A DNA stretch of 64,000 nt, taken from positions 55,114,852 through 55,178,851 of the forward strand of contig NC_089584.1 of NCBI RefSeq assembly GCF_019320115.1, read 5' to 3'. A program made the position numbers and the translations under genes. This document shows, one piece after another, positions 9,656-58,966 of the stretch. The stretch is from Miscanthus floridulus. Its lineage: Eukaryota; Streptophyta; Magnoliopsida; Poales; Poaceae. Each line of letters opens with the position of its first letter. Position 1 is the stretch's first letter. The notes under the pieces were generated by a model. The model had not been told where the DNA came from. It did no database searches and saw only the letters and a list, made by a program, of their open reading frames with translations.

Positions 9656-9669
9656 TCTCTTGTGTGTAG

Positions 9670-21751: not shown

Positions 21752-21756
21752 GCTTG

Positions 21757-21871
21757 CCCAACACTTTTTGTTCTTATTGCCAAAAGCTTATATGAACCAA
21801 GCATGTTAAAAACCTCATCTCTTTCATGTACTCGAGGTAGTATTGTCATCAATCACCAAAAAGGGGGAGAT
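21757..21871 (+). other. End of the 3' untranslated part and polypurine tract of Copia element 1
   Basis: After the solo LTR the Copia sequence resumes with CCAACACTTTTTGTTC and ends in AAAAAGGGGGAGAT (about 21858-21871), immediately before the TG of the 3' LTR. This is the plus-strand primer of the element. Confidence 0.85.
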
Positions 21872-32062: not shown

Positions 32063-33246
32063 ATACAATAATAAGATCATGGGGCTAACACATCTTTCAA
32101 CCTATCTTTACTTCAACGGTCTCATGATGCGAACTATTCGTGAAAGCACTCGATATCAGCTAAAATAGCCGATTTAGGCATAGTGCACAGTTAAGGTCAT
32201 GCCCTATCAGGAACAGATCTACCAAATAGCGATCCCCACTCCACGGTGCTAACAGTGGGGTGTGAGGCAGAATCACACAGGCCATGATAACGGGCTATGG
32301 AACGGTTTTCGCTAGCCAACAGATCTTCTCAAGCCAAAACATGCCTTAACCGCACACTATGCGCGATCAAGATTGACATAAAACGGCTTAACCGCACACT
32401 ATTCTCAAGACAAAACATGCCTCATCATTTAAAGTGCGGATTAGATCAAATTTAGATTAACAAACAATGAGTTAAAAAGGATATAAGGCCGATCTAGATT
32501 AATCCCAATCGGAGATAGTGATATTGCTATTATTAAATAAATAATGGAAGCAATAAGTAATATCGGTAACTTAATGAATCTATCCGAAGGAACGCCACCC
32601 TTAGATAGAGCCGATAACTTGACCTTAATCTAGTATGAGCAGTGGAGGTCGACCGGATCGATGCAGCCGTACTTGAACTAGACAAGAGTCGATAACTAGC
32701 TTATACCAAAGTCGCAGTGGAGGTCGACCGGATCAATGTAGCCGTACAAACAGAAGTATAAGCCATGACGGTACTTATAGACAAGCAGTGGAGGTCGACC
32801 GGATCGATGCAGCCGTACTTGCTGAAGAACTCGCTGAGATCTACTCTACTCCTATGCCTAAGGGGTGGCCAGAGCCAAAAAAGTAAGTAACTTGTATTTG
32901 ATTGATTGTGTCCCTTTACAATAGCCAGGGTCCAATATTTATACCCAGAGCCTAAGCACAAATCCTACTCAAGTATGACTCGGTACAATCTTTGGTATGA
33001 AGAAAATATTCCTAACTTAAGATAACTTGGACCCTAATCTTTCCCTTTTTGTAGAGTCCGATATGTATCTTCCCCACGCCAATCGCGGCTCATTATCGTT
33101 ATCTGCTGACGCCATTTAAAGAGAGACGATTCTAGTGTCGCACCCGAACCGGCTGATATCGATCCTCAGGCAACCGATTCCTTGATTGGCACAAACTTGG
33201 AAGCCTGCAAGTTCCTGCATTCTTCTCCCAAATTTTGGTGTAAACA
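32063..33246 (-). repeat. 3' LTR of element C, truncated
   Basis: It matches 57826-58966 of the 5' LTR (for example AATAATAAGATCATG with GGCTAACACATCTTTC). About 400 bases of the outer end are missing; the join at 32062/32063 leads into the Tekay-type LTR fragment. Three units GGTCGACCGGATCGATGCAG (or close) lie at about 32645-32820. Confidence 0.8.
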
Positions 33247-33540: not shown

Positions 33541-36500
33541 ATGGTGACCACTGACCACGTCCCTGAGGTATGCCTCCAAGTCTCCACTCTCCAAGCATCA
33601 ACGGCTACTTCATATTTCTTTTCTTCTCAAATTTATTTTGTCCGATTTCTAGGAAATGAGGAACAAAATCTTGATTCCATCAGCGGTTACTTCCAATGTC
33701 TATTTTCTTGGGCCCATGGGTGATCCTAATCCATCTAATTTCATCCATTAAGAAACTAAACAAATCCCCTTCAAATAGTATGTAGTTGATTTGTCCTCTT
33801 GTAATACCAAAACTCCCTTCAGAAATTGGTCAAAGATGCCTAAGGGATGGAGAAATTGGTTCCATAGGGTGTCTGAGAAAAAGGGTGGAGATTGGGAACT
33901 TTATGATCTGAATCAATGCTTGACTCTTTCATTGTTTGGGATGGAGAGGAACGACTCACTTCTGATTGCTGCATCTTATTTCTGGTCCAATGCCCAGAAT
34001 GCTTTCATCTTTGGCCACGGCCCAATGACTATCACCCTAGCCAATGTGTACATGTTGACCGGCCTTAGAATAACTAGATCAATACAGCCTTATGAGTACT
34101 TGAGTGCTGGTTCCAAGAAGCTAGCCAAAATATCAGACTGTTCAGGATGGGTAGGCTACATTCTAAACCATATTGAGGTTGGATCAGCTGTTAGCGAGAG
34201 AGAATATGTGGCTTTTCTAAACATGTGGCTAGAAAGATTCATCTTCTGTGGGTCATCTTGTGGACCAACTTATAATCACAAATTTATGGTAGAACATCTG
34301 GTAGCAAGTAAGAGTATTCCCCTTAGAAAATATCTATTAGGAGCTGCTTACCATCTGATGCACCAGGTAGCTGCCCAATTGCTAAAGAATGAACCAGTAC
34401 ACACTATTAGTGGCCCTTAGTGGTTGATACAGTTATGGCTGAACCTGTATATGCAGAAAATTGTAAGTTATGATCTTAGAAACTTGAGCTTTCCTTCCTC
34501 CACCTTTGATGAGGAATACAAGGGTGAAGAAGGAAGAACATGTCAGTGCATGAGCTACGGTGAAGCTGCATCGGCCAAAGTAATTCATGTCGATATTGGA
34601 CATCTCTTCAAAAAGTTTTAAAGAGGGTTCGATGTAGATGTTCTGACTTGGTTGCCCTATGATAATGATGAGAATGATGAGCTGATTTTCTCATTCAAAT
34701 TTTGATTTGAGTCAGGTTGTTCAGACGAGGCGGCGGCTGCAATTTTTAATTCCTTCATCAAGCCCTGCGTTCCCCCCGCTGAATTTTGTCACGGTCATGG
34801 CAAAATGGTTATAGGCTCCACCCTTCTAGGCAACCTTCTGACTTATGAGTTCTATAATCTATCTTTCATAGCCTATTAGTTTGGCTTTGGACAGCTCCCC
34901 CCTCAATTGTTCTTTAGAAACATATTGAAGCCAAGAGAAGACATCAGTGAGGTGATGGAAGCCTCCAGAGTGTTTCAATTGGGATCGAACCTTCCTTCCC
35001 TTTGCGTGCATGACTGGATCAGAGTCAAGTGCTCTTCTACTCTCTTTGACTCTTGGTGGCAAGAATGGCACTCCCATCTTCCCTGTAGGTTGGTCCATCC
35101 TTTGTGTATAACCCTAGATGGAGAATTTGTTTTTGACAGAGAGGTAACTTGCCATTCCTTTTCAAGAAAATTGTTCGATGAATTCCTCTACCAACCATTC
35201 TAATTGACCTTTTTAGGATGCCAAATTTCATCCTCCAAGCTTGGATAGGAAGGGGCGTCCCATAGATTACCAGCCACCATGTCAGTTTCAAGAATTAGAT
35301 CGGCAACCCTTCACTAAAGAAGTTGATGAAAACTCATGCTGCCTTCATTATCATGACATATCAATCTTCAAAGCGTAAGGTAGCTCACAGGACAACCCAG
35401 AAAACCACTGCTAGGAAGAGACTTCGCAGAATGAGACCATTAGCTGCTTAGGTAAACAATTTATCTCCTTAAAATGTTATTCAACTGCTGATCCCGTTCT
35501 TTCACAGCTATCGAGCATTGCGTCCCAACCTGCTCTAGGTGTGGGACTACTATCCTAGGCATTTGATTCAGCGTCAACTAAACCCCCATCGGCTGATCCT
35601 CAAGAGGAGTTGATTTTGGTTGAAATAACTAATGCTTCCATAACAGCAGAAAATGTGAGTTTTCCTTTATGCTTGTCAGAGCATTTTCTTTAACTTTTAA
35701 TCTATTCGGCTTCCATTCTTCATCTGGCTTTTTACCATACCAGATACTTCTTGAGGAAACACCCACGTAAGAGTAGGAGCCAGACAATCCACTTAAGGAT
35801 CCTGCCAGTGTCAAAGGCGATCCTATTGATTCCCCAGCTCAGCATGCAACTGATGGTTAGGAAGTTAAACATCCCCTTTATTCTTCTGCAATAATTATGA
35901 ACTAAAATTGGACATTGCAGATACCAATGTTGAAAGCTCAGAGCCGATTCAACCAGATGCTATTAGTGCATCATCAGCTATCCCTTCTTTTTAGGTAGAG
36001 GCTACTATGAAAAATGTATTGCGTTCATCTCGTCATTCATTTCATCATAAACTGATCCAATCCTCATAATCAAGATTCTCTTTAAATGTAGGCATTCGAT
36101 CTTCTAGCCCTGACCTACTCTTTCAATCTTGAGGAGTATCTTGATGGAGATTAAATCAGTTTGTCAGCCACTTCTTCCAAGGAAACCTTGCCAAAAGAGA
36201 CCAAGAATCAGCTAAGAGATGTTCTGCCAATGTTTGAGAAGAATATAGCTGATTTGGTCCAAGATACTGATCCAATGCATAGAGTCTTCTTGGCCATCAA
36301 GGGTAATCCATCCCCAGTTCTCTCTAGAGTCTTGTCTCCCTTTTCTATCTTTGAAGATCAGGTCCTGAAGGTGAAACAGGCTTAGAGGAATCTATTTGAT
36401 TGTGAAACTTTATTGGCCAAGGGGAACTCTAATAGGCAAGAGGCAAAAGAACTATCACAGTTGATTGATCACTTGAATAGCTCCTTCCTCAGTATTGATC

Positions 36501-38037: not shown

Positions 38038-38451
38038 ATGAAATCTTTTGCTCTTCTATGAACGTGTCTTAGTGCAATGCCTCTATACATGTCATGAATG
38101 TTTTTGTTTTATTCTTTGCTCTGGAGGCGATACATATCGTATCGGCTTTTATGTCTTTTAAGTTTCTTCATTTTTGAACTAGAGGCGATACCTTTCTGGT
38201 ACCAGCTATTAGAGCCGATGACTAAACAAATTGGCTATCAAGTGTTGATCAAATGTCAGTATAATATTCCTTCAAATATGTTTCATCGATTGTTATTAAC
38301 AGGTTGCACCAGAACTCTTCAAACCAAAGGTTAAACGATCGATCGATCCAAAGCAAGCATCTCATCAAGTGCAACAGAACTTCATTTAAGAAATCCATCA
38401 ATTCTGACTCGTACTTAGGGTTCCATTTATCATTCACATGTCGGCCTAAAC
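38038..38451 (-). other. Inner flank of element C next to the Tekay-type insertion
   Basis: The minus strand continues from the gag-protease part across the insertion (target TAAAC at 38447-38451). It has short open frames (MNDKWNPKYESELMDFLNEV at 38437) without a recognised domain. No RT or integrase motif is present. Confidence 0.5.
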
Positions 38452-41400
38452 TGTAACAGAACCAACCAAATTATAAGAATGTAAGTACAAAAACAATCAC
38501 CGAAGTGATCAAATTCCTATACTTAAGCTCCCATAATCCCGGTAGTCTGGAAATCACGACCGTAGTGATTCAACACACACATCATTCGTTACAACATTTC
38601 ACAAGTGGCATCCGGATTACATCCATCAGAGTGCAAATAAAATATTACAACCCAAGTTCAAATTTGCGGAAGCAACATAGTTTAGTACATAACTTCATAG
38701 TTTCAAATACATTGCCAGATCTTAGTCATTTCCCACAAAAGCATCTTCAGGTACGAGAACTAGGAGAGACCGCGGCCAACGGTCTAGTCTTCATCCCCAG
38801 CCGGGAGAAGGCAATACTTGCAGCAACCAAAGTAGAACTGGTCATCTGCAACAGGTGGGAGATAAACCCTGAGTACGAGAAGGTACTCAGCTAGACTTAC
38901 CCGTCAAAACCAGAAATAAAAGACACCAAGGGTCATGCAAGGCTTATGAGGTGGGCTAGCTTGACATAGTTGCATAAAAGAGCTTATGAATATAGTGACC
39001 ACTTTAAACTTAGCATCAAGTTTATCATCATTTACCTATCCACTAGATTAGCACCTGTACTATAGCACTCACTTATTAGGAGCAAACAATATTAACCATA
39101 GCAGGTATAATCAGGCTGTCATCATCATATCATCATTTCTGAACCATTATGTTATTTAGTGTATCTACTTTGGAGATAAGCCCGTCAAGTTCTCACTCAC
39201 CAGGAGAGACGGCGACTCAAATCGAATTACAACTCAGCTAAGGGGGTATTCCTAACTCTCACCCTGGCACACTTTGCAAGGGTAGCCGTGGGTCACCTTT
39301 GGGACAACTCAGGAACCAAATTCGCGGGTTCGATCAGCGCTAGCACTCTCAGGGATTGCCCTTCTGCTAGGACGATCAGGACTTTTAAATCACCTGCCCT
39401 TGGACTCATGCCTACGGCTCCCTTCCGAGGCGTACTTTATACTTATCGACTCCTGGCCTGAGGTGAGCTACTCGGCTTCGTGGTCGATCTCTGGACCCGG
39501 CCAACTAAGAGAGAGGCATGCATTCAACATGAACAGGAAAGGCTCCAAGATTCGGTCCTTAAGCGACACAGACGGAGTCACTACAAACCGGCAAGCCTCC
39601 GCCCGATCTTCATTTCAAATTAAGACAGGTTCTTTTCCACGATAGCAAATATAGCCAACCGTGCCATATGTATATTCCTATATCTCGTAGGTGACAGGAA
39701 ATCACCTGACTTCTACCACGTTTAAGCAGGGCTAAGAACTACACGAGCCTGAGCTACATAGGATTTAGGGTATCAATATCTGGACAAGGATTGGATAACC
39801 AATGCAGCAAGTGTTTGCATCCAACACCTAAACTTAATGCAACAATATATATGTAACAATAATACTTTAACTGCATTTCAGAAATTAGGAGGCTTAATAT
39901 GCTCTGGGGCTTGCCTTTCACAAAGTTGCACGAACGGTGATCCGGGCACTCAACGGCGACGTCGTCTGGCACTTCTCCTGAGGGCTGCACCTCCTGAACC
40001 TCCGGTGTTGGCTGCTGCTGCTCCTCGCTCGGTTCCTCGAATTCTAGCAAGGTCACTCCTTCTGGTACACCTATTGCATGCCGATGCACAAGATAAATAT
40101 CATGGATGCATAAGGAATGACTTGATGCTCATGATGAATGGATCACAGTAAGTGTTTAACGAAAACATCACTGGACACTCGTTTACCGATTAAGAATAGC
40201 TCTATTCAAATCACGTTAAAACATGTATCTCACTTAACTTGAGGAACAAGATCAACTTACCTAACTTGCATAACCTAAGATAAAGATGCTCATCTTCAGT
40301 TAAAGGCCTAACACCTAGGAACATTACCACAAGCTTAGGAATAGTAAAGGCATACTTAAATCAACAGTTAAAGTTTCATATGCAAACGAGCAGTTCTTTA
40401 TTTAATCACAACAAGAGTTCTACAATTTCAAATGACTCACAAGAGGACATTCTGGAAAGCTTATGAAATTCTCTACAAATCATTTATAAACATCAAAGCA
40501 TGATTCTTACATTAATCGAATCGAATTCAAGTAAACCTAGAATCCTTCCAGAAATAGCAGGTTTACTAAATTAAATATTTAGTGATGATGCAAAAGCAAA
40601 ATTGGACCAAACCAAGTTAACCAGCTTGTGGTGCATACTAGAGGAACCTCAGAAAGTATGGTGCCAACCTCTAAATAAATTATTTAATGTCCTTTTCTAA
40701 TTTATTTAGTTAATTAGGTGATTAAAGCAACATATAGTAAAACTATACAGAAAAATCTACAAAAATTACAGTAGCTACCTCATGCTTCACATAGACTACC
40801 ATAAAAATTTCAAAGCAATTTGTCAAGCAGGACTTGCTGTATCAAAAATAACAGATGGCAGGGCTATTTCTAGCATAATTAGGAAACCCTATTGAAAAGT
40901 GTCAAGCAACAGATTTCACATTTTTCCTAGTATCTTTCTAGCATAAGAATAGCATTCACCAATTTTTACCTCTACTAGATCTATAGAAAAATTATGAAAA
41001 TTCACACAAGATCCATCCATGCAAACAAGAGAATTACCTAACTCTTACCTACAGTGTGCAAAAAGTATGAAAATTTAACTACAAGTTATTCATGATATGA
41101 GCAGTACACCATAAAAATTTCATGCCATTTGGAGCTACATAGGAAAAGATATAATTAACCCTATTTCCCACATGATTAAAAGAGATAATTAGCAACTCCA
41201 TTTTTCATAACAGAACATGGCATAAATTATATTTTTAATATAAACTAGACATTACCAGGAACTCAACAAAATTGGAACCACATCATTTGGATCTACCAAC
41301 TAAGAGATACACATTTTTGAATATGTACTCAAATCTGTGAAAAAGAATGAAACAAATAAAAATGGAAAACCTAACCACTACTGCTGGGCCGGCCCGGAAG

Positions 41401-43068
41401 AACACGGCGGTCCGTGAAGCACACGCTAGCGCAGCCAGAACACGGCGTGGCCCAGGTCAGCTCCCGCCTGCGCTCGGCGACTGACAAATGGGTCCCGCGA
41501 GTCAGCGAGACAGATAGGGGAGGGAAGGAGAACGACGGCATAGCTCGTCACCGGTGGCAGTTCCGGCGAGGCCATCGGTGCCAACGTGTTCACCTCACCC
41601 GTGCTCACCTAGGGATACCATCTATTGTAGCTATTCCAGCGGCTAGAGGAAATGACGATGGCCATGGCGGTGCACGGCCGTGGTTTGGCTAGCTCCAGCG
41701 AGGCGACGACGTCACGGCCCTAGTGGTCGACCCTACGAGCATCAGTACCACTCACAGGACCTAAAGCAAGGGAAAAAAGGAGGCAGCAAGAGGCTCAAGC
41801 GGCACAGCCACATGCGAGCTCGGCCGGCGGCGGTCATGGTGACCCGGTGGAGCCGCCCTCACGATGAGCTCTACCTGAGGCGAAAACAAGATGACGGTGG
41901 GGTCGAGGATGTGGAGGAGCTCACGGTGGTGCTGTGGTTCAGAGGAATTGGACAATGGCGCTCGGTTTTGGTGGATTTGGCTCGGCGATGGCCACGGCTT
42001 GCCGGTCGTTGTGCTCGCGTGGAAGAGGATGGCAGAGGGTGAAATGGTGATATGAAGAGCGAGTGAGCAAGGCGCTGGCTTTCATCAGGGAGCACGGACG
42101 TGTGACATGGAGACGCTTGCAGAGCATGCACGCCACGTGGTGGTCAGCCCCTGAACCGGTTGGCCACGGCGTGCTCTGACGGTTTTCTGAAATGGCTGAA
42201 TCGACGTCCGATGGCACGATTGACAGCATGACTTTGACGATCTATATCTCCCAAACTATGGCGATCTGGTTCATGGTATAGTTGACAAAATTGAAGATCT
42301 AAGTGAGGACTACAACTTTGTCAATTGGAGCTCGAGTTGGTTTGGCCTGGTTAGGGAGATACAAGGCTCCAAACAATGATACACGAAACTGGAAATCAAC
42401 TCTTGGACTTAGAAAAATTCTAAGTGTAGAATTCAACCCCAAATCTTACTTGTGGGCCATGTTTGAGACTGTTCCACACATTTTCATGGGTTGGTCATAA
42501 AATAACTTTTGTTCCTTGATAAATTGGCTACAACTTTGGTAAAGGGTGCACAGCCATGCAAGGTCTCTAGGTTGGACTTTTGAATCAGTCAAACAGTGTC
42601 ACTCTATGGGTCATTCTAAGTCAAACCTCCCCTAGAGGGCAATTTGGTCATTTTGGTCCACATGAACAATGTCCCATCAATTACCCTAAGTGTAGTTAAG
42701 GTGTATTAGACCATAATTCACCACTCTACACAAGTGCTACACCAACTTCTAAGTATCACATGTGATGAAGCAACAAAACACTCAATTTTACTCTAATGTT
42801 GCAATTCCATGTTTCACATGTTTCATGACTTTGTTGTAATTTTAAACTTGTCATATTACTACCATGTTGCCATGTTTCAAGGTATGAGAAACTCATGTTG
42901 CATTCACATATTGCACTACTACCATTCACAAGCAATCAAGTATGAAACAAACATAATTGAGAATGTTGCATATACATGTTTCAGTACAATGGCATGATGA
43001 GGTAGATGATGCACATGTTTATGAGATGAAATGCAATTTTGTGGGAGCCAAACACCTAGGGTGTTACA
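38452..43068 (-). repeat. 3' LTR of the Tekay-type element
   Basis: On the + strand it runs from TGTAACAGAACC to CTAGGGTGTTACA; on the element strand it therefore starts TGTAACACCCTAGG and ends GGTTCTGTTACA. It has an AT-rich inner half and a GC-rich block at 41380-42180. Open frames on either strand in the GC-rich block overlap each other and lack family motifs. Confidence 0.92.
39886..40089 (-). other. Coding-like block inside the 3' LTR
   Basis: On the minus strand the block reads AIGVPEGVTLLEFEEPSEEQ, PEVQEVQPSGEVPDDV and VECPDHRSCNFVKGKPQSIL. It is open throughout. The solo LTR at 20070 carries a clearly related protein sequence. It starts without a good ATG, so splicing or readthrough would be needed. 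Confidence 0.5.
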
Positions 43069-43089: not shown

Positions 43090-44470
43090 TCATCCTGAGA
43101 TTTGGAAAGCGTACCATTCAGTAAAGAAAGTCAGAAAATTTTCCTTTAGATAATCTTCCCGCTCCCATGTTGCATCCCGATCACTATGATTACTCCAAAC
43201 TACCTTGTATAACTTAACTACTCGCACGGGCTTCTCCTCATAAGAAAGATCAGATTTCAAGTTGATTCTCCTCATTGCTACTCTTTCCTCGGGAATACGG
43301 AGACACTTCTTCAGCTGAGACACATGGAATACCAGGAATATAGCTCCCATTTCACGTGGTAGATCGAGTTTATAGGCTACTCTTCCACTTTTCTCGATAA
43401 TTTGGTAAGGTCCAATATATCGAGGCTCAAGCTTCCTTTTAATTCCAAAACGTTTTACTCCTTTCATAGGGGATACCTTTAGATAAACATGGTCACCTAC
43501 TTCAAACTCAATAGGTTTTCTTCTCTTATCAGCATAGCTCTTTTGTCTAGCCTGAGCGGCAGTCATATTCTTCTATATAGTTCGAACTTGCTCTTCAGCT
43601 TCTTTTACAAAATCAATACCATAGAATCTTCTTTCTCTGGGTTCCACCTAGTTTAAAGGAGTCCTACACTTGCGGCCATATAGCGCTTCAAAAGGAGCCA
43701 TTTTGATACTCTCTTGATAACTGTTGTTATAAGAGAATTCAGCGAGAGGCAACCATTCCTCCCAAGAGCCTTTGCAAGAGATAAGACAAGCTCTAAGCAT
43801 GTCTTCAAGAATTTGATTAACATGCTCAGTCTGTCCCGGTTTGCGGATGATAGGCAGAACTACGGATTAGATGAGTGTCAAGATTCTAATGTAAGCACTC
43901 CCAAAAGCAAGCCGTGAATTGTGGTCCTCTATCTGAAACAATGGATTTGGGTACACCATGGAGACGTACCACTTGTTGAAAATAAATATCAGCATAGTTG
44001 TGAGGGTGATAGGTAGACTTGACCGGAATAAAGTGAGCGGATTTGGTTAGACGATCCACGATAACCCAGATGGAATCACAACCCTTTTTGGTAGTGGGTA
44101 ACCCAACAATGAAATCCATAACAATTTCTTCCCACTTCCAGCCAGGAATAGAGAGTGGCTGCAATAACACGGGCCTCATGTGAATAGCCTTGACTCTACA
44201 ATAGTTATCACACCTTGCCACATAGGCTGTGATTTCTTTCTTCATCTTGGTCCACCAATAATACAGCTTGAGATCTTGATACATTTTACTGCTACCAGGA
44301 TGGATAGATAATCTAGAAGAATGGGCTTCAGCCATAATTTGATTTCTAAGTTCTTTGTCTTTGGGTACTACAAGCCTATCATTAAACCAGAGAATTCCTT
44401 TGTCATCGACCCTAAAGTGCTTGATCTCCTGCTCTTTCATCTTCCGCTTGATATGAAACACACCCACATC
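43090..44470 (-). pseudogene. Integrase with chromodomain-like C terminus (Tekay-type element)
   Basis: The frame from about 44467 shows the end of the spacer and HHCC region (SIHPGSSKMYQDLKLYYWW, then CDNYCRVKA) and the core (DFIVGLPTTKKGCDSIWVIV, DRLTKSAHFIPVK, VSDRGPQFTACF with the second Asp). After a broken stretch (43880-43570) the C-terminal part runs 43566-43090: KRRKPIEFEVGDHVYLKVSP, GVKRFGIKRKLEPRYIGPYQ, FHVSQLKKCLRIPEE, and finally VVWSNHSDRDATWEREDYLK ENFLTFF. The last block matches the chromodomain-like end of chromovirus integrases, which is thought to guide insertion to heterochromatin. Stops between the two parts make it inactive. Confidence 0.85.
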
Positions 44471-44570
44471 AGTCTTCTAGAGTTTGATAATTCGACTTCT
44501 AAGAGAGCAATCCATAGTGATATTGTGGAGTACTACAGGATGAAGGAGGTGTGCCAGATGAAAGTCTTCA

Positions 44571-46340
44571 CTAACTAAGGAATTGCAATGGGCCTTTCTG
44601 CCTTAAGGCATCAGCAACCACATTTGCCTTACCAGGATGGTAGTGTACTTGAAGGTTGTAGTCTTTGATTAATTCTAACCATCGTCGTTGACGCATGTTC
44701 AACTCGGGTTGAGTAAAGATGTACTTGAGACTTTTATGGTCAGTATAGATGTTGCACACATTACCTAGCAAGTAATGTCTCCAAATCTTCAGGGCATGAA
44801 CAACTGCAGGCTAGCTCTAAGTCATGGGTAGGATAATTGACTTCATGTTTTCGAAGCTTGGCGTGAAGCATAAGCAATGACTCGGCCCTCCTGCATAAGA
44901 ACACACCCCAAACCAGTGCCACATGCATCACAATAGACATCAAAAGGCTTCTCGATGTCAGGTTGTGCCAATATAGGAGCAGAAGTTAGTAAGGTCCACA
45001 AAGTGTGGAAAGCCTCTTCACACTTCGGAGTCCACACAAACTTCTCATCCTTTTGAAGTAGTCGAGTCATGGGCTTGGTGATTTTTGAGAAATCCAGGAT
45101 AAAGCGATGATAGTAACTAGCCAAACCTAGGAAACTTCGGACTTCAGTGACTGTAGTAGGTGCCTTCCAATTTAGGACTTCTTGCACCTTAGTAGGGTCA
45201 ACCGAAATCCCATCTCCAGATAACACATGACCTAGAAAAGGTATCCTTGTTCAACCTAGAATTCGCACTTGCTGAACTTAGCATAAAGCTGGTTGTCACG
45301 TAATCGAGTTAAAACAATTCTCAGATGTTTCAGCATGTTCTTCATCATTCTGAGAATATACAAGGATATCATCAATGAACATGATGACGAACTTGTCCAA
45401 TTCCGGCATGAATAATGAATTCATCAGGTACATAAAGTGTGCCGGAGCATTTGTCAACCCAAAGGACATGACAAGATATTCAAACAAGCCATAACGAGTA
45501 GAGAAAGCTGTCTTAGGTATATCTTCAGGATGAATTTTGATCTGATGGTAGCCAGACCTCAAATCGATCTTGGAGAATACCTTAGCTTTGGAGAGTTGAT
45601 CAAACAGAATATCAATGTGAGGAAGAGGGTATTTGTTCTTGATAGTAATAGCATTAAGGGGGCGATAATCCACTGCACATGCGTAGAGACTCAGTCATTC
45701 TTCTTCACAAAGATAGCCGGACAACCCCAAGGAGAAGAACTAGGCCGAATCAAACCTTTCTTTAATAGCTCATTCAACTAAATCTTCAGCTTCAGCCAAC
45801 TCATTAGGGCGGCATTCTATAGGGCCTTCAAGAAATAGGAGCCGTACCCGGAATGAGTTCTATCTTGAATTCTACTTCTCGGTCCTGAAGGTAATCTAGG
45901 CAAGTCATCAGGGAAGACATCTGGAAACTCACAGACAATCGATATATCCTCAATGGCTTTGGCTAGGGTAGCATTGGCTTGTATTGTGGATAGCGATATC
46001 ATAAGGCAACTGCACTAGAAAACCCTTCTTATCCATAGGATCACTCAACATTACCACACAGGTTGATGTATCGATCAACACTCCACTTCCCACTCATCCA
46101 CTTCATCCCTAGGATTACATCGATTCCTACCCCTGGCAGAACTACAAGATCTACAAGGAACTCTCGATCCCCAATCTCAATCTTTACATCTTTAACTACT
46201 TGGTTAGTCATGATATTATTTCCTAGCAGCACTAATATAATAACCACCCTTGACAATTGTAATCACATTCATCTTATGCTTAGATGCAAAAGTAGAACTC
46301 ACAAAGGAATGTGAAGCACCAGAATCAAAGAGCACAACTG
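44571..46340 (-). pseudogene. Protease, reverse transcriptase and RNase H (Tekay-type element)
   Basis: Protease: DSGASHSFVSSTFASKHK near 46340-46280, then after a frameshift NQVVKDVKIEIGDREFLVDL and GVGIDVILGMKWM (46256-46041). [57 protein letters not shown] and the catalytic [10 protein letters not shown] (45673-45300). RT connection and RNase [41 protein letters not shown], then [20 protein letters not shown] and VADALRQKG (45226-44571). The Gypsy order is protease, RT, RNase H, integrase. Several frameshifts and stops separate the blocks. Confidence 0.88.
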
Positions 46341-46429: not shown

Positions 46430-47454
46430 GACAGGACGTTTCCCTAAGCATTCTGCTTGGGAGGATAGGGACAAGTACTAGCCCAGTGACCAGGCTTGTT
46501 ATAGTTCTAGCACTGGCCTGTTAGCTGGTGGGACATTGGAGCTGCCCTGCCTAGAGGTATTCTTTGGCAAGGAAATTGTGTACCCCTTGCGGAAACCAGT
46601 TTTAGCTTGATTCTTCTTCTGAGGTGGGCGGTACCAGACATTAGCATTGGGTGGACGATATTGGGTTTTGGATACCACTGGTGCCTTAGACTAAGAAGCA
46701 CCTGCCTCAAAGTTTCTTTTACGGGTCTTGGAAGCAGCATATACCTTATCATTTTTCTCCTGAGTCAGGGTGTCACTGATAAACTCATTGAAGGTGACGC
46801 TTGCAGTTGCCCATAGACTTCATTAGTTTAGGGGAAAGTCCCCTCTTGAAACTAGCTATCTTTTTGGCATCAGTATCAATGAACTCAGGAGCATACCTCG
46901 CCAGGTTGTTAAATGCCTGGAGGTATTCATTAAGACTCTTGTTGCCTTGAGTTAGCTTTATGAACTCGGTATGCTTAATTGCCATGAGACTAGGAGGGAT
47001 AAAATGTCCTCGGAAAGCTACTTGGAACTGGTCCCATACCACCTTAACGTTTGTAGGGAAGGTGGTCTGGTGATGGGTCCACCAGATGCCTACAGGGCCT
47101 TAGAGCTGGTGTCCTACATACGAGGCCTTCATACCTTCGGTCAATCAGAGCAATCCAAACCTTTGCTCTATCGTACTCAACCATTCATTAGCTTGTAATG
47201 GTTCTTCTGCCTCTCTAAAGATAGGAGGCTTTGTATCCATGAAGTCCTTAAAGCTACTATACTGGTTTGGCTCTGGTCCCTAGCATACATGTCAATCATC
47301 ACGGTTAGCCAATTGGCGCATAGCCTCAGCTAGCATGCGCTGGCTTTCGATGACTGTCTACATTAGCTCAGCTGGTGTGGACGGTGGAGGAGGTGGTTGT
47401 TCCTCATCTCCAAGGCTACTGACCGCGACTGAAGATTATAAGCCATCTGTGAAA
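46430..47454 (-). pseudogene. gag of the Tekay-type element
   Basis: A Pro-rich N-terminal part (EEQPPPPPSTPAEL) is followed by the gag core: FKDFMDTKPPIFREAEEPLQ, ANEWLSTIEQRFGLL, GPVGIWWTHHQTT, then VWDQFQVAFRGHFIPPSLMA, LTQGNKSLNEYLQAFNNLAR and SFKRGLSPKLM. The CCHC knuckle near 46510-46470 is damaged: a stop follows the first Cys and the second Cys is Tyr (NYNKPGHWASTC). Stops are TAG, TAA or TGA at positions where Gln, Arg or Trp is expected. A TTTCACAG just before 47454 could be a splice acceptor joining the upstream ORF, which is not proven. Confidence 0.75.
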
Positions 47455-47861: not shown

Positions 47862-48446
47862 CTACGCATCATCCTCGGAGTTAGTGTTGAAGATCTCTCC
47901 TCCATCTTCATCACTAGTAGGTTCTAACTCCTCATCTTCCTCCTCTCCGGGTGGAACATCCTCAGGTCCATTAACCTTAATGTCATCATCATCTTCAGCC
48001 ATGATGACACCAGAGCCCATCTCATCCTCATCATTAGGGGGTAGGAGAGGGTGAAGTTGATTGTGTAATAGGTGAACCTCCTCATGGAGATGGTCATTGT
48101 ACTCTTCTGCAACTGCCAACTGCTGCTCCAGCTCAACCTGTCACGCTCTCAACGCATTCTCTTCGTTCTAGGCTTCATTCCACTGGTTCAGCACGTGAAT
48201 CAACATACGTTCATAGTTGCGGTGAGCAACTGTCAACCTCTGAACCTCCAGGGTCTCTTGATCCTATTCCTGTGTTACTTGCTCCAAATGGTGCTAAGCC
48301 GCACTCCTCTCAGCAGTCACCCGAGCCATCTCTGCCCTCAGCCTTTCCTCCTCAGTAGGCTCAGGACAGGGCCCACGAGGAGCTAACTGGTGACAAGGCA
48401 CCCTGCCTCCGATGGACTTACGAGCGGTGCATTTTGTGCGCGCCAT
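47862..48446 (-). pseudogene. ORF upstream of gag with a histone H3 tail-like N terminus
   Basis: One minus-strand frame of 194 codons starts at 48446, about 760 bases after the 5' LTR. Its first residues are MARTKCTARKSIGGRVPCHQ followed by LAPRGP. Against the canonical H3 tail ([20 protein letters not shown] then A) 15 of the 21 positions after Met are identical, including Arg2, Lys4, Arg8, Lys9 and Ser10. The rest is unlike a histone: a Glu/Arg-rich helical stretch (EEERLRAEMARVTAERSAA), a coiled-coil-like part, and an acidic tail (EDDDDIKVNGPEDV, GGEIFNTNSEDDA). TAG codons (first at 48296) and one TGA interrupt it. An extra ORF (orf0) before gag is known from rice RIRE3/RIRE8; whether this is its counterpart needs comparison. 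Function unknown. Confidence 0.75.
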
Positions 48447-49190
48447 CTGTAGCAAAAAGTTGCAACGTAAGGGGAGAATCATTTAAGGGATATGAAATTT
48501 AATTAGTCGAGACCATCAAATTTTTAAAGGAGGGAGTAATGCAAGAAATGTCATGTATGCTTGAACATGATGCATGCATGATCCGTACGTCCTCACAAAC
48601 CTAGAAAAATTTAAAGGCTAGCAAAATATACGGTGGCATACATACATTCTCTCATATACGGTAGCTAGTCGATCTACAACGATACGTTGTTAGTGTACCT
48701 GCAGCAAATTTATTTCAGCCCCATAATTTCCCAAAAAGGCATGTAAAGTAAGCAGTAAACTAAATACTTTCATACATACATCCCCCGATGTATATACTCT
48801 AGTATCACAGCTACCCGACAGAGATACCCACACTTAAGTACTCTCATAGATACATGATCGAACATATAAGTATGCGAGCAACCACAACTACTCTCCCCTA
48901 GACCGACGGTTGGACGGTCATGCTCTCACAACTCCCACTTACCAAAGCATAGAGGTATTTGATCCATACATTACCACCCAAGCAGATGGCATCCATACAA
49001 TAGCACGCCGTATGGACAATGAAACAGAAACAAGTAAGAACCCCCCCCCCAAGTTAGTACTTTAATAAGCCACCTAAGAGTCCTTATTTGGGCATAAAGG
49101 ATATGACCACTGGCAATACTTAGTATTTAATTTAGAATTTTCACAAATACTTTTGTTTTAAATACACAAATGACATGTTTAGTGTCGAAT
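48447..49190 (-). other. 5' leader of the Tekay-type element
   Basis: About 740 bases between primer binding site and the H3-like ORF, without a supported gene. It includes a C10 run (about 49030-49040). TTTTTGCTACAG directly before the ATG at 48446 resembles a splice acceptor. Confidence 0.5.
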
Positions 49191-49205
49191 CTTGCTCTGA
49201 TGCTA
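49191..49205 (-). other. Primer binding site of the Tekay-type element
   Basis: On the minus strand the LTR end is followed by GC and then TAGCATCAGAGCAAG. This matches with two differences the TGGTATCAGAGC site complementary to initiator methionine tRNA. Confidence 0.7.
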
Positions 49206-49207
49206 GC

Positions 49208-52200
49208 TGTAACAGAATCGACCAAATTATAAGAACGTAAGTACAAAAACAATCACCGAAGTGATCAAATTCCTGTACTTAAGCTCCCATAATCCCGGTA
49301 GTTCAGAAATCACGAAGGATTTCAAACAACTCTCGACATACAAACCAAGACCATAGTGATTCAACACACACATCATTCGTTACAACATTTCGCAAGTGGC
49401 ATCCGGATTACATCCATCAGAGTGCAAATAAAATATTACAACCCAAGTTCAAATTTGCGGAAGCAATATAGTTTAGTACATAACTTCATAGTTTCAAATA
49501 CATTGCCAGATCTTAGTCATCTCCCACAAAAGCATCTTCAGGTACGAGAACTAGGAGAGACCGCACCCAACGGTCTAGTCTTCATCCCCAGTCAGGAGAA
49601 GGCAATACTTGCAGCAACCAAAGTAGAACTGGTCATCTGCAATAGGTGGGAGATAAACCCTGAGAACGAGAAGGTACTCAGCTAGACTTACCCTTCAAAA
49701 CCAGAAATAAAAGACACCAAGGGTCATGCAAGGCTTATGAGGTGGGCTAGCTTGACACAGTTGCATAAAAGAGCTTATGAATATAGTGACCACTTTAAAC
49801 TTAGCATCAAGTTTATCATCATTTACCTGTCCACTAGATTAGCACATGTACTATAGCACTCACTTATTAGGAGCAAACAATATTAACCATAGCAGGTATA
49901 ATCAGGTTGTCATCATCATATCATCATTTCTAAATCATTATGTTATTTAGTGTATCTACTTTGGAGATAAGCCCGTCATGTTCTCACTAACCGGGAGAGA
50001 TGGCGACTCGAATCGAATTACAACTCAGCTGAGGGGGTATTCCTAACTCTCACCCTGGCATACTTTGCAAGGGTAGCCGTGGGTCACCTTTGGGACAACT
50101 CAGGAACCAAATTCGTGGGTTCGATCAGCGCCAACACTCTCAGGGATTACCCTTCTGCCAGGACGATCAGGACTTTTAAATCACCTACCCTTGGACTCAC
50201 GCCTACGGCTCCCTTCCGAGGCGTACTTTATACTTATTGACTCCCAGCCTGAGGTGAGGTACTCGGCTTCGTGGTCGGTCTCCGGACCTAGCCAACTAAG
50301 AGAGAGGCATGCGTTCAACATGAACAGGAAAGGCTCCAAGATTCGGTCCTTAAGCGACACAGACAGAGTCACTACAAACTGGCAAGCCTCCACCCGGTCT
50401 TCATTTCAAATTAAGACAGGTTCTTTTCTACGATAGCAAATATAGCCAACCGTGCCATATGTATATTCCTATATCTCGCAGGTGACAGGAAATCACCTGA
50501 CTTCTACCACGTTTAAGCAGGGCTAAGCACTACACGAGCCTGAGCTACATAGGATTCAGGGTATCAATATCTGGACAAGGATTGGATAACCAATGCAGCA
50601 AGTGTTTGCATCCAACACCTAAACTTAATGCAACAATATATATATGTAACAATAATACTTTACTGCATTTCAGAAATTAGGAGGCTTAATATGCTCCAGG
50701 GCTTGCCTTTCACAAAGTTGCACGGACGGTGATCCGGGCACTCAACGGCGACCTCATCTGGCACTTCTCCTGAGGGCTGCACCTCCTGAACCTCCGGTGT
50801 TGGCTGCTGCTGCTCCCCGCTCGATTCCTCGAATTCTAGTTAGGTCACTCCTTCCGGTACACCTATTGCATGCCAATGCACAAGATAAATATCATGGATG
50901 CATAAGGAATGACATGATGCTCATGATGAATGGATCACAAAAAGTGTTTAACAAAAACATCACTGGACACTCGTTCACCGATTAAGAACAGCTCTATTCA
51001 AATCACTTTAAAACATGTATCTCACTTAACTTGAGGAACAAGATCAACTTACCTAACTTGCATAACCTAAGATAAAGATGCTCATCTTCAGTTAAAGGCC
51101 TAACACCTAGGAACATTACCACAAGCTTAGGAATAGTAAAGGCATACTTAAATCAATAGTTAAAGTTTCATATGCAAACGAGCAGTTCTTTATTTAATCA
51201 CAACAAGAGTTCTACAATTTCAAATGACTTGCAAGAGGACATTCTGGAAAGCTTATGAAATTCTCTACAAATCATTTATAAACATCAAAGCATGATTCTT
51301 ACTGTTAATTCAAATCGAATTCAAGTAAACCTAGAATCTATCCAGAAATAGCAGGTTTACTAAATTAAATATTTAGTGATGATGCAAAAGCATAATCAGA
51401 CCAAACCAAGTTTACCAACTTGTGGTGCATACCAGAGGAACCTCAGAAAGTATAGTGCAAACTTCTAAATAAATTATTTAATGTCCTTTTCTAATTTATT
51501 TAGTTAATTAGGTGATTAAAGCAACATATAGTAAAACTGTATAGAAAAATCTACAAAAATTACAGTAGCTACCTCATGCTTCACATAGACTACCATAAAA
51601 ATTTCAAAGCAATTTGTTAAGCAGAACTTGCTGTATCAAAAATAACAGATGGCAGGGCTATTTCTAGCATAATTAGGAAACCCTATTGAAAAGTGTCAAG
51701 CAGCAGATTTCACATTTTTCCTAGTATCTTTCTAGCATAAGAATAGCATTCACCAATTTTTACCTCTACTAGATCTATAGAAAAATTATGAAAATTCACA
51801 CAAGATCCATCCATGCAAACAAGAGAATTACCTAACTCTTACCTACAGTGTCCAAAATGTATGAAAATTTAACTACAAGTTATTCATAATATGAGCAGTA
51901 CACCATAAAAATTTCATGCCATTTGGAGCTACACAGGAAAAGATATAATTACCCCTATTTCCCACATGATTAAAAGAGATAATTAGCAACTCCATTTTTC
52001 ATAACAGAACATGGCATAAATTATATTTTTAGTATAAACTAGACATTACCAGAAACTCAACAAAATTGGAACCACATCATTTGGATCTACCAACCAAGAG
52101 ATACACATTTTTGAATATGTACTCAAATCTGTGAAAAAGAATGAAACAAATAAAAATGGAAAACCTAACCACTACTGCTGGGCCGGCCCGGAAGAACACG

Positions 52201-53863
52201 ATGGCCCGCGAAGCACGCGCTAGCGCAGCCCAGAACATGGCATGGCCCAGGTCAGCTCCCGCCTGCGCTCGGCGGCTGACAAATGGGTCCCATGAGTCAG
52301 CAAGATAGACAGGGGAGGGAAGGAGAACGACGGCATAGCTCGTCGCCGGTGGCAGTTCCCGCAAGGCCATCGATGCCAACGTGTTCACCTCACCTGTGCG
52401 CACCTAGGGATACCATCTCTTGTAGCTATTCCAGTGGCTAGAGGAAATGACGACGGCCATGGCGACGCACGGCCACGGTTTGGCCAGCTCCGGTGAGGCG
52501 ATGGCGTCACGGCCCTAGTGGTCGACCCTATGAGCATCAGTACCACTCACAGGACCTAAAGCAAGGGAAAAAGGAGGCAGCAAGAGGCTCGAGCAGCATA
52601 GCCACGTGCGAGCTCGGTCGGCGGCGGTCATGGTGACCTAGTGGAGCTGCCCTCACTGTGAGCTCTACCTGAGGCAAAAACGAGATGACGGTGGGGTCGA
52701 GGACGTGGAGGAGCTCACGGTGGTGCTGTGGTTCAGAGGAATCGGACAATGGCTCTCGGTTTTGGTGGATTTGGCTCGGCGGCGGCCACGGCTTCCCGGT
52801 CGCCGTGCTCGCGTGGAAGAGGATGGCAGAGGGTGAAATGGCGATATGAAGAGCGAGTGAGCGAGGCGCTGGCTTTCATCAGGGAGCACGGACGCGCGAC
52901 GTGGAGACGCTAGCAGAGCATGCACACCACGTGGTGGTCAGCCCCTGAATCGGTCGGCCACGGCGTGCTCTGACGATTTTCTAAAATGGCTGAATCGACG
53001 TCCGATGGCACGACTAATAGCGTGACTTTGATGATCTATATCTCCCAAACTATGGCGATCCGGTTCATGGTATAGTTGACAAAATTGAAGATCTAAGTGA
53101 GGACTACAACTTTGTCAATTGGAGCTCGAGTTGGTTTGGCCTAGTTAGGGAGATACAAGGCTCCAAACAATGATACACGAAACTGGAAATCAACTCTTGG
53201 ACTTAGAAAAATTCTAAGTGTAGAATTCAACCCCAAATCTGACTTGTGGGCCATGTTTGAGACTGTTCCACACATTTTCATGAGTTGGTCATAAAATAAC
53301 TTTTGTTCCTTGATAAATTGGCTACAACTTTGGTAAAGGGTGCACTAGCCATGCAAGGTCTCTAGGTTGGACTTTTGAATCAGTCAAACAGTGTCACTCT
53401 ATGGGTCATTCTAAGTCAAACCTCCCCTAGAGGGCAATTTGGTCATTTTGGTCCACATGAACAATGTCCCATCAATTACCCTAAGTGTAGTTAAGGTGTA
53501 TTAGACCATAATTCACCACTCTACACAAGTGCTACACCAACTTCTAAGTATCACATGTGATGAAGCAACAAAACACTCAATTTTACTCTAATGTTGCAAT
53601 TCCATGTTTCACATGTTTCATGACTTTGTTGTAATTTTAAACTTGTCATATTACTACCATGTTGCCATGTTTCAAGGTATGAGAAACTCATGTTGCATTC
53701 ACATATTGCACTACTACCATTCACAAGCAATCAAGTATGAAATAAACATAATTGAGAATGTTGCATATACATGTTTTAGTACAATGGCATGATGAGGTAG
53801 ATGATGCACATGTTTATGAGATGAAATGCAATTTTGTGGGAGCCAAACACCTAGGGTGTTACA
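49208..53863 (-). repeat. 5' LTR of the Tekay-type element
   Basis: Ends and internal order match the 3' LTR. It carries about 36 extra bases near 49315-49350 (GGATTTCAAACAACTCTCGA) that the 3' LTR lacks. The target duplication TAAAC follows at 53864-53868. Confidence 0.92.
50683..50886 (-). other. Coding-like block inside the 5' LTR
   Basis: The same block as at 39886-40089: AIGVPEGVT, a TAG where Leu stands in the other LTR, then LEFEESSGEQQQPTPEVQEV and VECPDHRPCNFVKGKPWSIL. The differences from the other LTR are few, so they say little on their own about selection. Confidence 0.5.
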
Positions 53864-53959
53864 TAAACCCATATTCAGAACTAATGCTTATTTTCCCTTA
53901 TTCCAACGCCGACGCGAAGCCATGACTTCTAACTAAAACAAACTCTCAGAGCCGATTGC

Positions 53960-56900
53960 TTGCATCGGCTATTGGCTCTCATTGCTAATCTTAATGAAGC
54001 CTCCTTCCCATAACTTGCTAGAAAAGTATTCAAAGTCTCCTAGCTCCCAAAAGACTGGATCGGCTGTTGCGATACTTATAGACTCATCAGCATGAACCAA
54101 TTCGACATCATCTCCATGCCATTGAATCAAACACTGATGCATGGTCAATGGTACACAACAGTTCGCATGAATCCAATCATGACCAAGGAGCAAACTCTAC
54201 GACCCTTTTCCATAGATGATGAAGAATGTGGTGAGCAGGGTCTTACTTCTAATTGTTAGTTCGACATTTATTGCCCCTGGGTCTTAGACGCATTACCTCC
54301 AAAATCCTTAAGCATCATGTCAGTCTCCATCAGATTTCTTGGTCCCTTGCTAAGTTTATGAAAAGTGGTGTAAGGCATGAGATTGACAGAAGCACCTCCG
54401 AACACCAACATGTTGTTCATCAGCTTCCCATCAACCAAACCTTTTACATATAAAGCTTTTAGGTGCCGATGCTTAATTAGATTATCAAATATTGCTTGTT
54501 GTATAACCGTTAACTTGGCAACTATCTCCTCATACTCCGATTCATTGAAATCCGAATAAACTTCTTGATCTGCTGGAGCTCTGAACTCTGATGGCAACAG
54601 AAAAGCCATTTGAATATTAGCCGATGGTTGCTTTCTATCGACTATTTGCATAGCACGCCATACTTAAGGTTTACCAGATGCCTGAGCCTATTCCAACTCT
54701 TTATTCCTTAGGCATTGCACCCTTCTCTTCTGGCTTCTTGTTAAACCTCCTAGACACCACTGGCCTTCCTGCCAAACATATTTTCTCTCATTGACTTCTT
54801 CTCCGTAATCAGTCCAGCCTTGATCAATAACTCTTTTTCCAAGCCGATTATGAACACTTCCATTTTTTAAGCGTCGATCCATGTTATTATGATGATATGC
54901 ATCTTGAGCATGGATAGACCGGCAGTTGGTTTGAAATTGCCTAAAATCCCAATATTGATCGCTGCATTCTAGACAGTCATGTCTGGTAGGCAACTTCAAA
55001 CCTTTATTCCAGCAATGTCTGAAGGAAGGACAATTCCAATGTGATTTGGCTTGTTTCCTTTCATACCTCTCTTTTTCTAGTTGACGCTGGTATTCTTGAT
55101 CTTCTAACCAACGCTGATAATCCTTTTCTTTCTACCGCTACCACTTATTCAACAGAATTTGAGATGTAACCCATAGCTTTGTTGCCCCTTCCTTTGACGT
55201 TTCTCCCTGCTCATACCGACTCTTTTGCTTATCGCGATGTCTTTTAATTTCCCTGTATTCGTCGACTGATATTTGCATCTTGGGATCGATTGTTCCAGCT
55301 TCTCTTGATTTGGTTGATGTTAGGACCTTAGTCTTTCCTTTGAGTAGCCTAGCATCAACTTTGTTTTGATCTCCTAGGAAAGGATTATCATCAACTTTTA
55401 TTTTCCGAGGCGTATCAAATTTGAGCTTTCCTTGTTGAATAGCCCTCTGTATATGCTGCCAGAAAATTCTGCATTCATTAGTGGAATGACAGGTAGTGTT
55501 ATGGAACTTGCAAAACTTCTTATTCTTCAACTTATTAGGGGGCAACATAACATGATTATCGGGCAACTTGATCTATCCTTTCTCAAGTAGGAAATCGAAG
55601 AGCTTGTCTGATTTTGTGACATCAAAGTCATAGCTCTCCTCGACTCCTCTTCCCTAAGGATTTGGCACTATTACTGTCTTCTTGCCCTAATTGACTCTTC
55701 TTCTTTATCTTCATAGCCATCATCGACTGAGTATGGATTATAAGCTTCAGCCACTGTGGTACTCTTCTAGAATCGGGTATCTCTGCGCATACTCTGGAAT
55801 TGGCTATTGAGCGCTGCCACTCGTTGAGCCAATTGACCAAAGTTGTCAAATTCTTGCCCCAGTAGCTTTTCTTTCCACATTGGCAGCATTCCTTGAATGG
55901 CTAAGGTAGCTAACTGATCATCAACCAAGTTTAATGAGAAGCATAAGTTTCTAGTCTCTCGGAACCTCTGAAGAAACTCAGTGCTCGATTCATTAGTCTT
56001 CTGCCTTATAGTTGTCAGATCGGTAATCTTCTTTTTTCTAGTTCTAGTATAAAAAATATGTATGAAATTTCTTTTCCAGATCTGCCCAATTGGCAATTGA
56101 GTTGACTGGCAGTGATGAAAACCAACTGAAGGCTAGTCTTGATAGGGACAAGGAGAAGAAACAAACTCGATGGTCCTCCTTGACTGATGCCTCACCCAAT
56201 TGTGTAAGATAACGACTAACATGTTCTATCATGCTTGTACTGCCTTGGTCAGTGAACTTAGCAAACTCTGGAAGCCTGTAATTTGCATGAAAAGTGACCA
56301 AATCATACCATTCTAGATATGGGCATTTGTATGAAAAGGTCTACCCCTTTGGCTTCAGATCGAACTGATTCTTCTTCATCTCGGTCACCTTTAGCAGCAA
56401 CTCGTCAGCATGAGAATTTGGATTTATCTACACCTACTGACCCATCTATGGATTGAAATCCCATGTGCCTTGATACCCTGGATTTAGAATCATGTGAAGG
56501 GTGTTATAATCTATGCCATAATGATACCCTTGTAGAATCTCTACCTACTGGGTCCTTTGTTGGTTCGCTGCTTGAAGTCTCTGGGTTATAGATATGAGGA
56601 TCTATATCCCTATGGATCATTTGAACTGATGGTGCTATTTTGAGCCGATGACGGTATGTGGCCCGATGTGCCAAAATTAATCACCTGTTTCTAACCTTGC
56701 CCCACCGGCTGTTGCACATGCTGTACTGATGGTCTAGGATTATACAATATATGATTTGTAGGAGTACCTTGAGCTTGTTCAGATGGACTCTGAACTGCCT
56801 AGACATCATCATTACCAGTTGGTGTTGTTTCTTGATGACTGGTACCGACTTGATTAGTCCCTTGGGTCGATGGATATGGAATATTCTAATAAGCCAGCCC

Positions 56901-57422: not shown

Positions 57423-58966
57423 TACAATTGACAATGAGAGAAAGCTAATCAGTAATTTAAGGTGGAACATACCGGTGTTGCCAGATAGTCCCGAATGTGC
57501 GGCTCTGAGAGCCGATATGGAAGGAAATCGACTAAATAGTCGATTCCAGCATACTCATAAAGATAAATCAATTAAAGCTCATGGAAGGTAAATCGGTTAT
57601 CGTTCAGGATAGATCTCGATATTTAGACAAACATTAGTCAATGGCAAGCGGATGTCAACAATGATTAGTTTATGCTAAGCCAATGACTACAAGCAACCGA
57701 ATCCCTTTTGTATAAATGAAATAGCTCATCATCATTTAACCATTTAATAAAGATAAATCTAATAAACATATTAGATCTCATCTTTCACTATGACCAGTGG
57801 GGCATGAGGCAGAATCATGCAGGCTATAATACAATAATAAGATCATGAGGCTAACACATCTTTCAGCCTATCTTTACTTCAACGGTCTCGTGACACGAAC
57901 TGTTTATGAAAGCACTCGATATCGGCTAAAACAGTCAATTCAAGAATAGATCTACCAAATAGTGATCCCCACTGCACGGTGCTAACAGTGGGGTGTGAGG
58001 CAGAATCACACAGGCCATAATAACAGGCCAAGGAACAGTTTTCGCTAGCTAATAGATCTACTCAAGACAAAACATGCCTTAACCGCACACTATGTGCGAT
58101 CAAGATTGACATAAAACGGCCGATAAAAACACAACTCAACTCTTAAAGTGCGGATTGGATTAGATCAAATTCAGATTAACAAACGATGAGTTAAAAAGTA
58201 TATAAGGCCGATCTAGATCAATCCCAATCGGGCGAAGTGATATTGTTGTAATTAAATAAATAATGGAAGCAATAAGCAATATCGGTAACTTAATGAATCT
58301 ATCTGAAGGAACACCACCCTTAGATAGAGCCGATAACTTGACCTTAATCTAGTTCGAGTAGTGGAGGTTGACCAGATCGATGCAGCCATACTTGAACTAG
58401 ACAAGAGTCAATAACTAGCTTATACCAGAGTTGCTGTGAAGCTCGACCGGATCGATGCAGTCGTACGAACAGAAAGTATAAGCCATGACGGTACTTATAG
58501 ACAAGCAGTGGAGGTCGACTGGATCGATGCAGCCATACTTGCTGAAGAACTCACAGAGATCTACTCTACTCCTACTCCTAAGGGGTGGCCAAAGCCAAAA
58601 AAGTAAGTAACTTGTATTTGATTGATTGTGTCCCTTTACAATAGCTGAGGTCCAATATTTATACCCAGAGCCTAAGCACGAATCCTAATCAAGTATGACT
58701 CGGTACAATCTTTGGTATGAAGAAAATATTCCTATCTTAAGATAACTTGGACCCTAATCTTTTCCCTTTTGTAGAGCCCGATATGTATCTTCCCAACGCT
58801 GATCGCGGTTCATTATCGTTATCTGCTAACACCATTTAAAGAGAGCCGATTCTAGTGTCGCACCCAAACTGGCTGATATCGATCCGCATGCAACCAATTC
58901 CTTGATTGGCACAAACTTGGAAGCCTGCGAGTTCCTGCATTCTTCTCCCAAATTTTGGTGTAAATA
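57423..58966 (-). repeat. 5' LTR of element C
   Basis: On the element strand it starts TATTTACACCAAAATTTGGG (TG start mutated to TA) and ends TGTCAATTGTA, before GTGTCAAATTGACTGGCATG. It carries the three GGTCGACCGGATCGATGCAG-like units at about 58365-58545. It is the full-length version of the truncated 3' LTR. Confidence 0.8.

Follow-up and report, generated by a model that had tools for sequence, protein, structure and literature searches.

An H3-tail-like N terminus in the extra ORF of a Ty3/gypsy retrotransposon of Miscanthus floridulus, with a probable source in a host histone exon

In plants, transposons are silenced through H3K9 methylation, which is read by DNA methyltransferases. 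The chromoviruses of Poaceae reportedly carry 5' extra ORFs, part of them with partial similarity to a histone H3 gene, as described by Steinbauerova et al. in 2011 (Genetica 139:1543). Those ORFs, like the one studied here (ORF0), are placed ahead of gag in elements with a chromodomain, a comparison made at the level of description. The H3 similarity of grass chromovirus extra ORFs was thus reportedly described already; the exon limits, the splice sites and the selection on the tail given below may be new, or may already be contained in the same work. Among parasite proteins, the histone mimics of SARS-CoV-2 ORF8 and hepatitis delta antigen are short internal motifs, unlike the likeness in ORF0, which spans 21 residues and is N-terminal. 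Both are presented as viral histone mimics, ORF8 with an ARKS motif (disputed, PMC10833455) and the delta antigen in PMC6972770, and they resemble our case in that a parasite protein bears an H3-like motif.

Tekay elements with 5' extra ORFs are named for maize, sorghum (Sb7), rice (Retrosat-2, RIRE3, RIRE8) and sunflower in PMC11728184. Compared by description, these ORFs are like ORF0 in lying before gag and in combining a long helix with disordered parts, and their nuclear location is predicted; on the other hand, some of them are likened by the authors to dsRNA-binding proteins. The word "histone" was not found in the excerpts of PMC11728184, PMC7264820 and PMC13317346, and in that of PMC9289625 it appears only in another connection than the extra ORFs. 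The latter paper describes orchid Gypsy elements carrying a host-derived m6A demethylase domain, which is similar to the present case in that a retrotransposon has retained a host coding piece, possibly affecting how the host controls it, while the domain itself is another one with no sequence relation to the ORF0 tail. A literature search found no paper describing an H3-tail-like extra ORF by its title or the start of its abstract, and, by the same titles and abstract starts, neither the exon-level origin nor the testable K9 hypothesis was found.

The window analyzed here is a stretch of 64,000 nucleotides of the Miscanthus floridulus genome (GCF_019320115.1; contig NC_089584.1, positions 55,114,852 to 55,178,851). 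The retrotransposon with the H3-tail ORF0 lies on its minus strand, with both ends intact. By LTR comparison, the 5' LTR occupies 49208..53863 and the 3' LTR 38452..43068 (both on the minus strand), and the element is flanked by a target-site duplication of 5 bases, GTTTA (53864..53868 and 38447-38451). The divergence between the LTRs is K2P 0.040, which at an assumed rate would mean an age of about 1.5 My for this pair. Next to the 3' side of the 5' LTR, a primer-binding-site-like stretch was delimited approximately and by eye at 49190..49206 (minus strand), and it presumably matches the initiator-Met tRNA. Pieces of gag (46785..47099; Pfam Retrotrans_gag, E 9.8e-17), reverse transcriptase (45296..45694; RVT_1, E 3e-25) and the integrase zinc-binding and core regions (43886..44476; Integrase_H2C2, E 7.3e-17, and rve, E 5.7e-5) follow on the same strand. 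With its two LTRs, target duplication and gag - RT - integrase order, this is a Ty3/gypsy LTR retrotransposon. ORF0 sits between the 5' LTR and gag, on the same strand, which is the position of the 5' extra ORFs of Poaceae chromoviruses.

The ATG of ORF0 is at 48446-48444 on the minus strand, a strand that was absent from an earlier note on this DNA. Its start (Met and residues 1-21; 66 bases, 48381..48446, minus strand) reads MARTKCTARKSIGGRVPCHQLA and, after Met, is identical to H3 residues 1-21 at 15 of 21 positions, with no gaps and at the very N terminus. The first in-frame stop, at 48294-48296, comes after codon 50 (48297..48446, minus strand, by in-frame translation), and a decayed frame continues to 47862. 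The whole frame (47862..48446, minus strand; 195 codons including stops), backed by 184 homologues at E<=0.001 and the model of the relative P0013, is composed of the tail, a linker, a long helix and an acidic end. ORF0 of the window copy reads MARTKCTARKSIGGRVPCHQLAPRG. H3 tails were the top phmmer matches of the 50-aa piece (E 4.8e-4, against 177,635 distinct PDB sequences), and the relative P0144 matched the H3 tail with E 1.1e-5. The in-register H3-like N terminus with 15 of 21 identities, which the earlier note had claimed, was therefore borne out and is family-wide; the H3 resemblance of the ORF0 start is confirmed as real and above chance. Both ARTK and ARKS, which had been called intact, are exact in the window copy. 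The placing of the element as Tekay-type is a label from that note and would be putative. The same note had attributed several mismatches to single C-to-T transitions from the histone residue; that applies to three of the six (I11, V15 and C17, where relatives have T, A and R) and not to residue 5, R14 and H18, since relatives have Arg, Leu or another residue at position 5 but in no case Gln, and the whole family shares R14 and H18. The supposition that the parent element was closer to the histone agrees with relatives reaching 18/21 identity to H3.

Homologue searches gave 184 matches at E<=0.001 (120 of these listed), 135 (120 of these listed) and 80, with 249 distinct proteins, from ENA and JGI contigs, among the matches listed. 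We scored the tail as present when at least 9 of 22 positions matched without gaps, and 159 of the 249 homologues among the matches listed carry it. The remaining 90 are below this rule and uninformative, as most of those printed begin within the helix or are cut. A family without the H3-like N terminus in its other members, the first outcome that the earlier note had set against its own reading, is not what we found, with 159 database proteins having the tail. Among these 159 tails of the matches listed, K9 is kept in 156, and K4 and K9 jointly in 130. Position 4 is Lys in 132, Arg in 25 and Gln in 2; position 14 is Arg in 148 and Lys in 5; position 18 is His in 153 and never Lys; Gln is found at position 5 in none; and just 63 have exact copies of both ARTK and ARKS. 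The script-defined group with no Lys at residue 4 (n=24; 23 Arg, 1 Gln) has K9 in 24/24, again among the matches listed. The highest H3 score, 19/22 including Met (18/21 without it), was reached by 3 of the first 124 tails counted. What would be expected at the sequence level of a histone mimic, an H3-like sequence with a modifiable K9 context, is present in this family.

As a separate observation, the Arg-4 group (MARTRTT...; P0193, P0211-P0222 and others) retains K9. It was not found in the M. floridulus genome among the best 150 of 7502 candidate places for P0193, and identity there was at most 81% for P0121 and P0193 (best 150 of 8548 and best 150 of 7502 places, respectively), so that the genome copies studied at the DNA level include neither the Arg-4 group nor the AEVTAAR group. 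Viral contigs searched for relatives of P0013 returned 20 pattern matches, with 0 confirmed.

The search of the own genome covered 2.68 Gb, and the element family is very abundant. Before scoring, there were 1011 candidate places for the DNA query (best 40 scored), 8548 for P0121 (best 150 scored) and 7502 for P0193 (best 150 scored). We assembled 88 copies, being the best 40 by DNA similarity to the window ORF0 (window copy included) and the best 50 by P0121, minus 2 duplicates; 48 of the 88 were picked via a protein query holding the tail, and the DNA query includes the tail too. The tail is in register in 88/88 copies, all from queries that contained it. In these copies, K9 is Lys in 88 and K4 is Lys in 87 (one stop), while position 14 is Arg and position 18 is His in all 88. 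ORF0 is open from the ATG through codon 134 in 34 of them.

Without correction, the tail seems relaxed (raw pN/pS 0.70, against 0.38 for the helix; 40 copies) because its Arg codons lie in contexts prone to methylation. When CpG and CHG transitions were excluded and the ORF-wide synonymous rate was the divisor, N/S for tail, linker and helix was 0.21, 0.14 and 0.32 in the 88 copies; 0.16, 0.08 and 0.25 in the 34 open copies; 0.28, 0.39 and 0.38 in the first 40 copies; and 0.14, 0.04 and 0.26 in the other 48. A regional synonymous divisor gave 0.54 for the tail and 0.28 for the helix (88 copies), or 0.44 and 0.37 (40 copies), so that the rank of tail and helix hinges on the divisor chosen, the order flipping with the regional rate. 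The noncoding leader changes at 0.0186 per opportunity (48 copies), more slowly than the synonymous sites of ORF0 (0.0344), and taking the leader as divisor makes every ratio about 1.85x higher with the order unchanged. The acidic end and the helix are constrained too, and the corrected N/S is below 1 in all parts of ORF0. Neutral evolution of the tail, the other outcome that had been named as contrary to the initial reading, did not occur (corrected tail N/S 0.21 to 0.54). We are confident that purifying selection has maintained ORF0, including its tail, in those lineages that spread.

The ARTK/ARKS codons, which had been specified in advance by the earlier note, have a ratio of 0.04 against 0.31 for the helix, and they were under the helix in 40/40 subsamples. 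We initially had a candidate case for specific selection on them, with 2% of random 8-codon helix sets being as low, and rejected it when the sets were drawn inside the query stretch, where the proportion as low became 0.07 (88 copies), 0.15 (first 40) and 0.18 (other 48). A choice bias is indicated for the 48 copies picked by the protein query, as their helix has 0.20 inside the query and 0.39 outside. An extra constraint on ARTK and ARKS, the contexts of K4 and K9, is suggested and is not significant against matched codons. Residues 5 (48429-48431) and 19 (48387-48389) concentrate most tail changes, at about 2x the synonymous rate after correction, which could be the result of either lineage divergence or positive selection.

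A putative splice acceptor, TGCTACAG, adjoins the ATG (48447..48454, minus strand), with its AG kept in 85/88 copies. The top donor-like site of the leader by match count is a putative GTAAGT (48937..48942, minus strand, read from 48942 to 48937), exact in 46 of the 48 copies with leader. Splicing between these candidates would excise 496 bases and with them an in-frame ATG at -36; the window leader has 26 ATGs, 19 of them inside the candidate intron. From that in-frame ATG, 12 codons upstream, the frame is open in 69/88 copies, and therefore an unspliced leader could leave the tail 12 residues away from the N terminus of the protein. We lean slightly towards an ORF0 made from a spliced leader, with the protein starting exactly at MARTK.

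For the origin of the tail, host H3 genes were located with an H3 protein query, and seven were fetched (L087-L093). In 6/6 intron-containing genes (L087-L091 and L093) the first coding exon stops after K23 at AAG|GT; these intron ends were read from the DNA, and the next exon of L093 is known only as a search match. The H3 similarity of the element stops at A21, two codons before the host exon end. L087-L091 have T31 in their second exon, which is the H3.3 form, and we take these five as H3.3 genes. CAG is directly 5' of the ATG in two of the five (L087 and L088), as in the element; L089 has TAG at this place, and L090 and L091 have CAG 22 bases upstream. Identical in-register runs between element copies and H3.3 genes have a median of 15 and a maximum of 23 bases. 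When each copy was compared with its random synonymous recodings, the H3.3 genes gave a median P of 0.02 (run) and 0.03 (identity), with P <0.05 in 65 (run) and 55 (identity) of the 85 copies with no stop in the tail. The same test against L092 and L093 gave a median P of 0.225 (run) and 0.19 (identity), and some copies have a run of 19 with L093.

We suggest that the tail derives, in all likelihood, from a host gene of the H3.3 type, whose first coding exon was taken up, probably together with the acceptor of the intron preceding the ATG; CENH3, presumably not the source, was set aside. The tail could otherwise be a product of convergence, a selected mimicry in which no histone exon was captured. 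Some room for this is left by the modest codon match to H3.3 (median P 0.02), which amounts to roughly one test because the copies share ancestry and is not significant for the window copy by itself. However, the best copies with 18/21 identities, the identical runs of up to 23 bases, the exon-like limits and the CAG|ATG make convergence unlikely. Chance likeness, or an artefact of a single decayed copy, would fit the stops in the ORF0 of the window copy, but it can practically be dismissed given the E values of 4.8e-4 and 1.1e-5 and the recurrence in 159 database proteins (among the matches listed) and 88 genome copies. The exon match would explain the source of one among many plant retrotransposon extra ORFs of unknown origin.

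In the model of P0013, built with 24 sequences (mean pLDDT 77.8, pTM 0.39), the tail and the acidic end are disordered, and a confident helix spans 32-134. The rest of ORF0 had been said to have no histone fold, in accordance with this single long helix and with the lack of Pfam histone matches in the window ORFs and three relatives; in the three ORF0 relatives no Pfam family was above the cut-off. The helix may dimerise, displaying two tails. As for the chromodomain-like segment pointed out earlier at the integrase end, a shortened stretch is found at 43135..43227 (minus strand) with a weak Pfam Chromo match (E 3.6e-4, below the cut-off), and it is fuller in relatives: the window copy is without about 12 residues that are found in 15/15 readable relatives (16 fetched, one with no match). 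By eye, the relatives keep one of three cage positions, the Trp. According to PMC6317226, type II chromodomains have neither cage residues nor a known partner, and our reading is that the relatives' chromodomain is probably of this type, with no full aromatic cage. The tail might be the ligand of this chromodomain, guiding self-assembly or integration, as had also been proposed, and both are indeed present in one element; nevertheless, self-reading is unsupported and very improbable because the chromodomain is, by this reading, of type II and is shortened in the window copy.

The history that we envisage would start with a chromodomain Ty3/gypsy element capturing an H3.3-type first coding exon from its host. 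This exon would have become the N terminus of the 5' extra ORF, which runs on into the long helix and the acidic end. K14 and K18 would have been lost early, while the K9 context would have been kept in every group seen and the K4 context in most. A coiled-coil ORF0 protein could then present H3-like tails to host H3K9 writers or readers, and the outcome might be a decoy weakening H3K9-linked silencing or a tether to chromatin. Such a host-directed K9-tail mimic, decoy or tether, is tentatively the most likely role, favoured because K9 is the lysine that every group has retained, with K14 and K18 lost and another residue standing for K4 in one group. The complete version, where the H3.3 exon would have become a true N-terminal mimic that blocks or hijacks the silencing H3K9 methylation loop, with K14 and K18 discarded, K9 kept and the retained H3.3 acceptor setting the tail at residue 1, appears rather doubtful as a whole. 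A family of such abundance, with an extra protein that starts with an H3 tail and has K9 as its best-kept lysine, would offer a direct way to examine interference with the H3K9 silencing loop.

The mimic reading is just slightly ahead of a plainer one, in which the captured H3.3 exon would be a mere short, basic and disordered N-terminal module (for nuclear entry, or RNA or nucleosome contact), the helix being the part that counts and H3 readers and writers playing no role. We regard this module as a real, if minority, possibility: the helix and the acidic end are also constrained, the ARTK/ARKS constraint is not significantly above that of matched codons, and the family persists with K4, K14, K18 and residue 5 altered. 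Nonetheless, K9 and its neighbors are the best kept and sites 5 and 19 are free, a pattern that a merely basic stretch does not need. The tail could also be a relic with no present use, carried by the rest of ORF0, as might be thought from the decayed window copy, the raw pN/pS (0.70 for the tail against 0.38 for the helix) and the weaker constraint on the tail than on the helix when the regional synonymous rate is used. This is rather unlikely, since all counts that exclude CpG and CHG transitions put the tail under 1 (0.21 to 0.54) and it has been kept in several groups.

Outside the element, direct repeats of about 1 kb, 90% alike, are found at 32207-33244 and 57940-58964, flanking it as a whole, and gag-like ORFs occur on the minus strand at 54268-56096, inside this repeat pair. 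From these outer repeats and gag-like ORFs, the studied element looks to be nested in an older LTR element. Within the same pair, a 209-aa ORF on the plus strand (33791-34420), opposite in orientation to the outer gag-like ORFs, matches the Pfam plant mobile domain (PMD, E 9.9e-12). Another repeat pair (5585-7214 and 21865-23427, 92-93% alike) surrounds copia-type gag and integrase ORFs at 7333-12558, and inside it, at 19077-21757, parts of the sequence resemble the LTR of the studied element at 73-79%, in inverted orientation.
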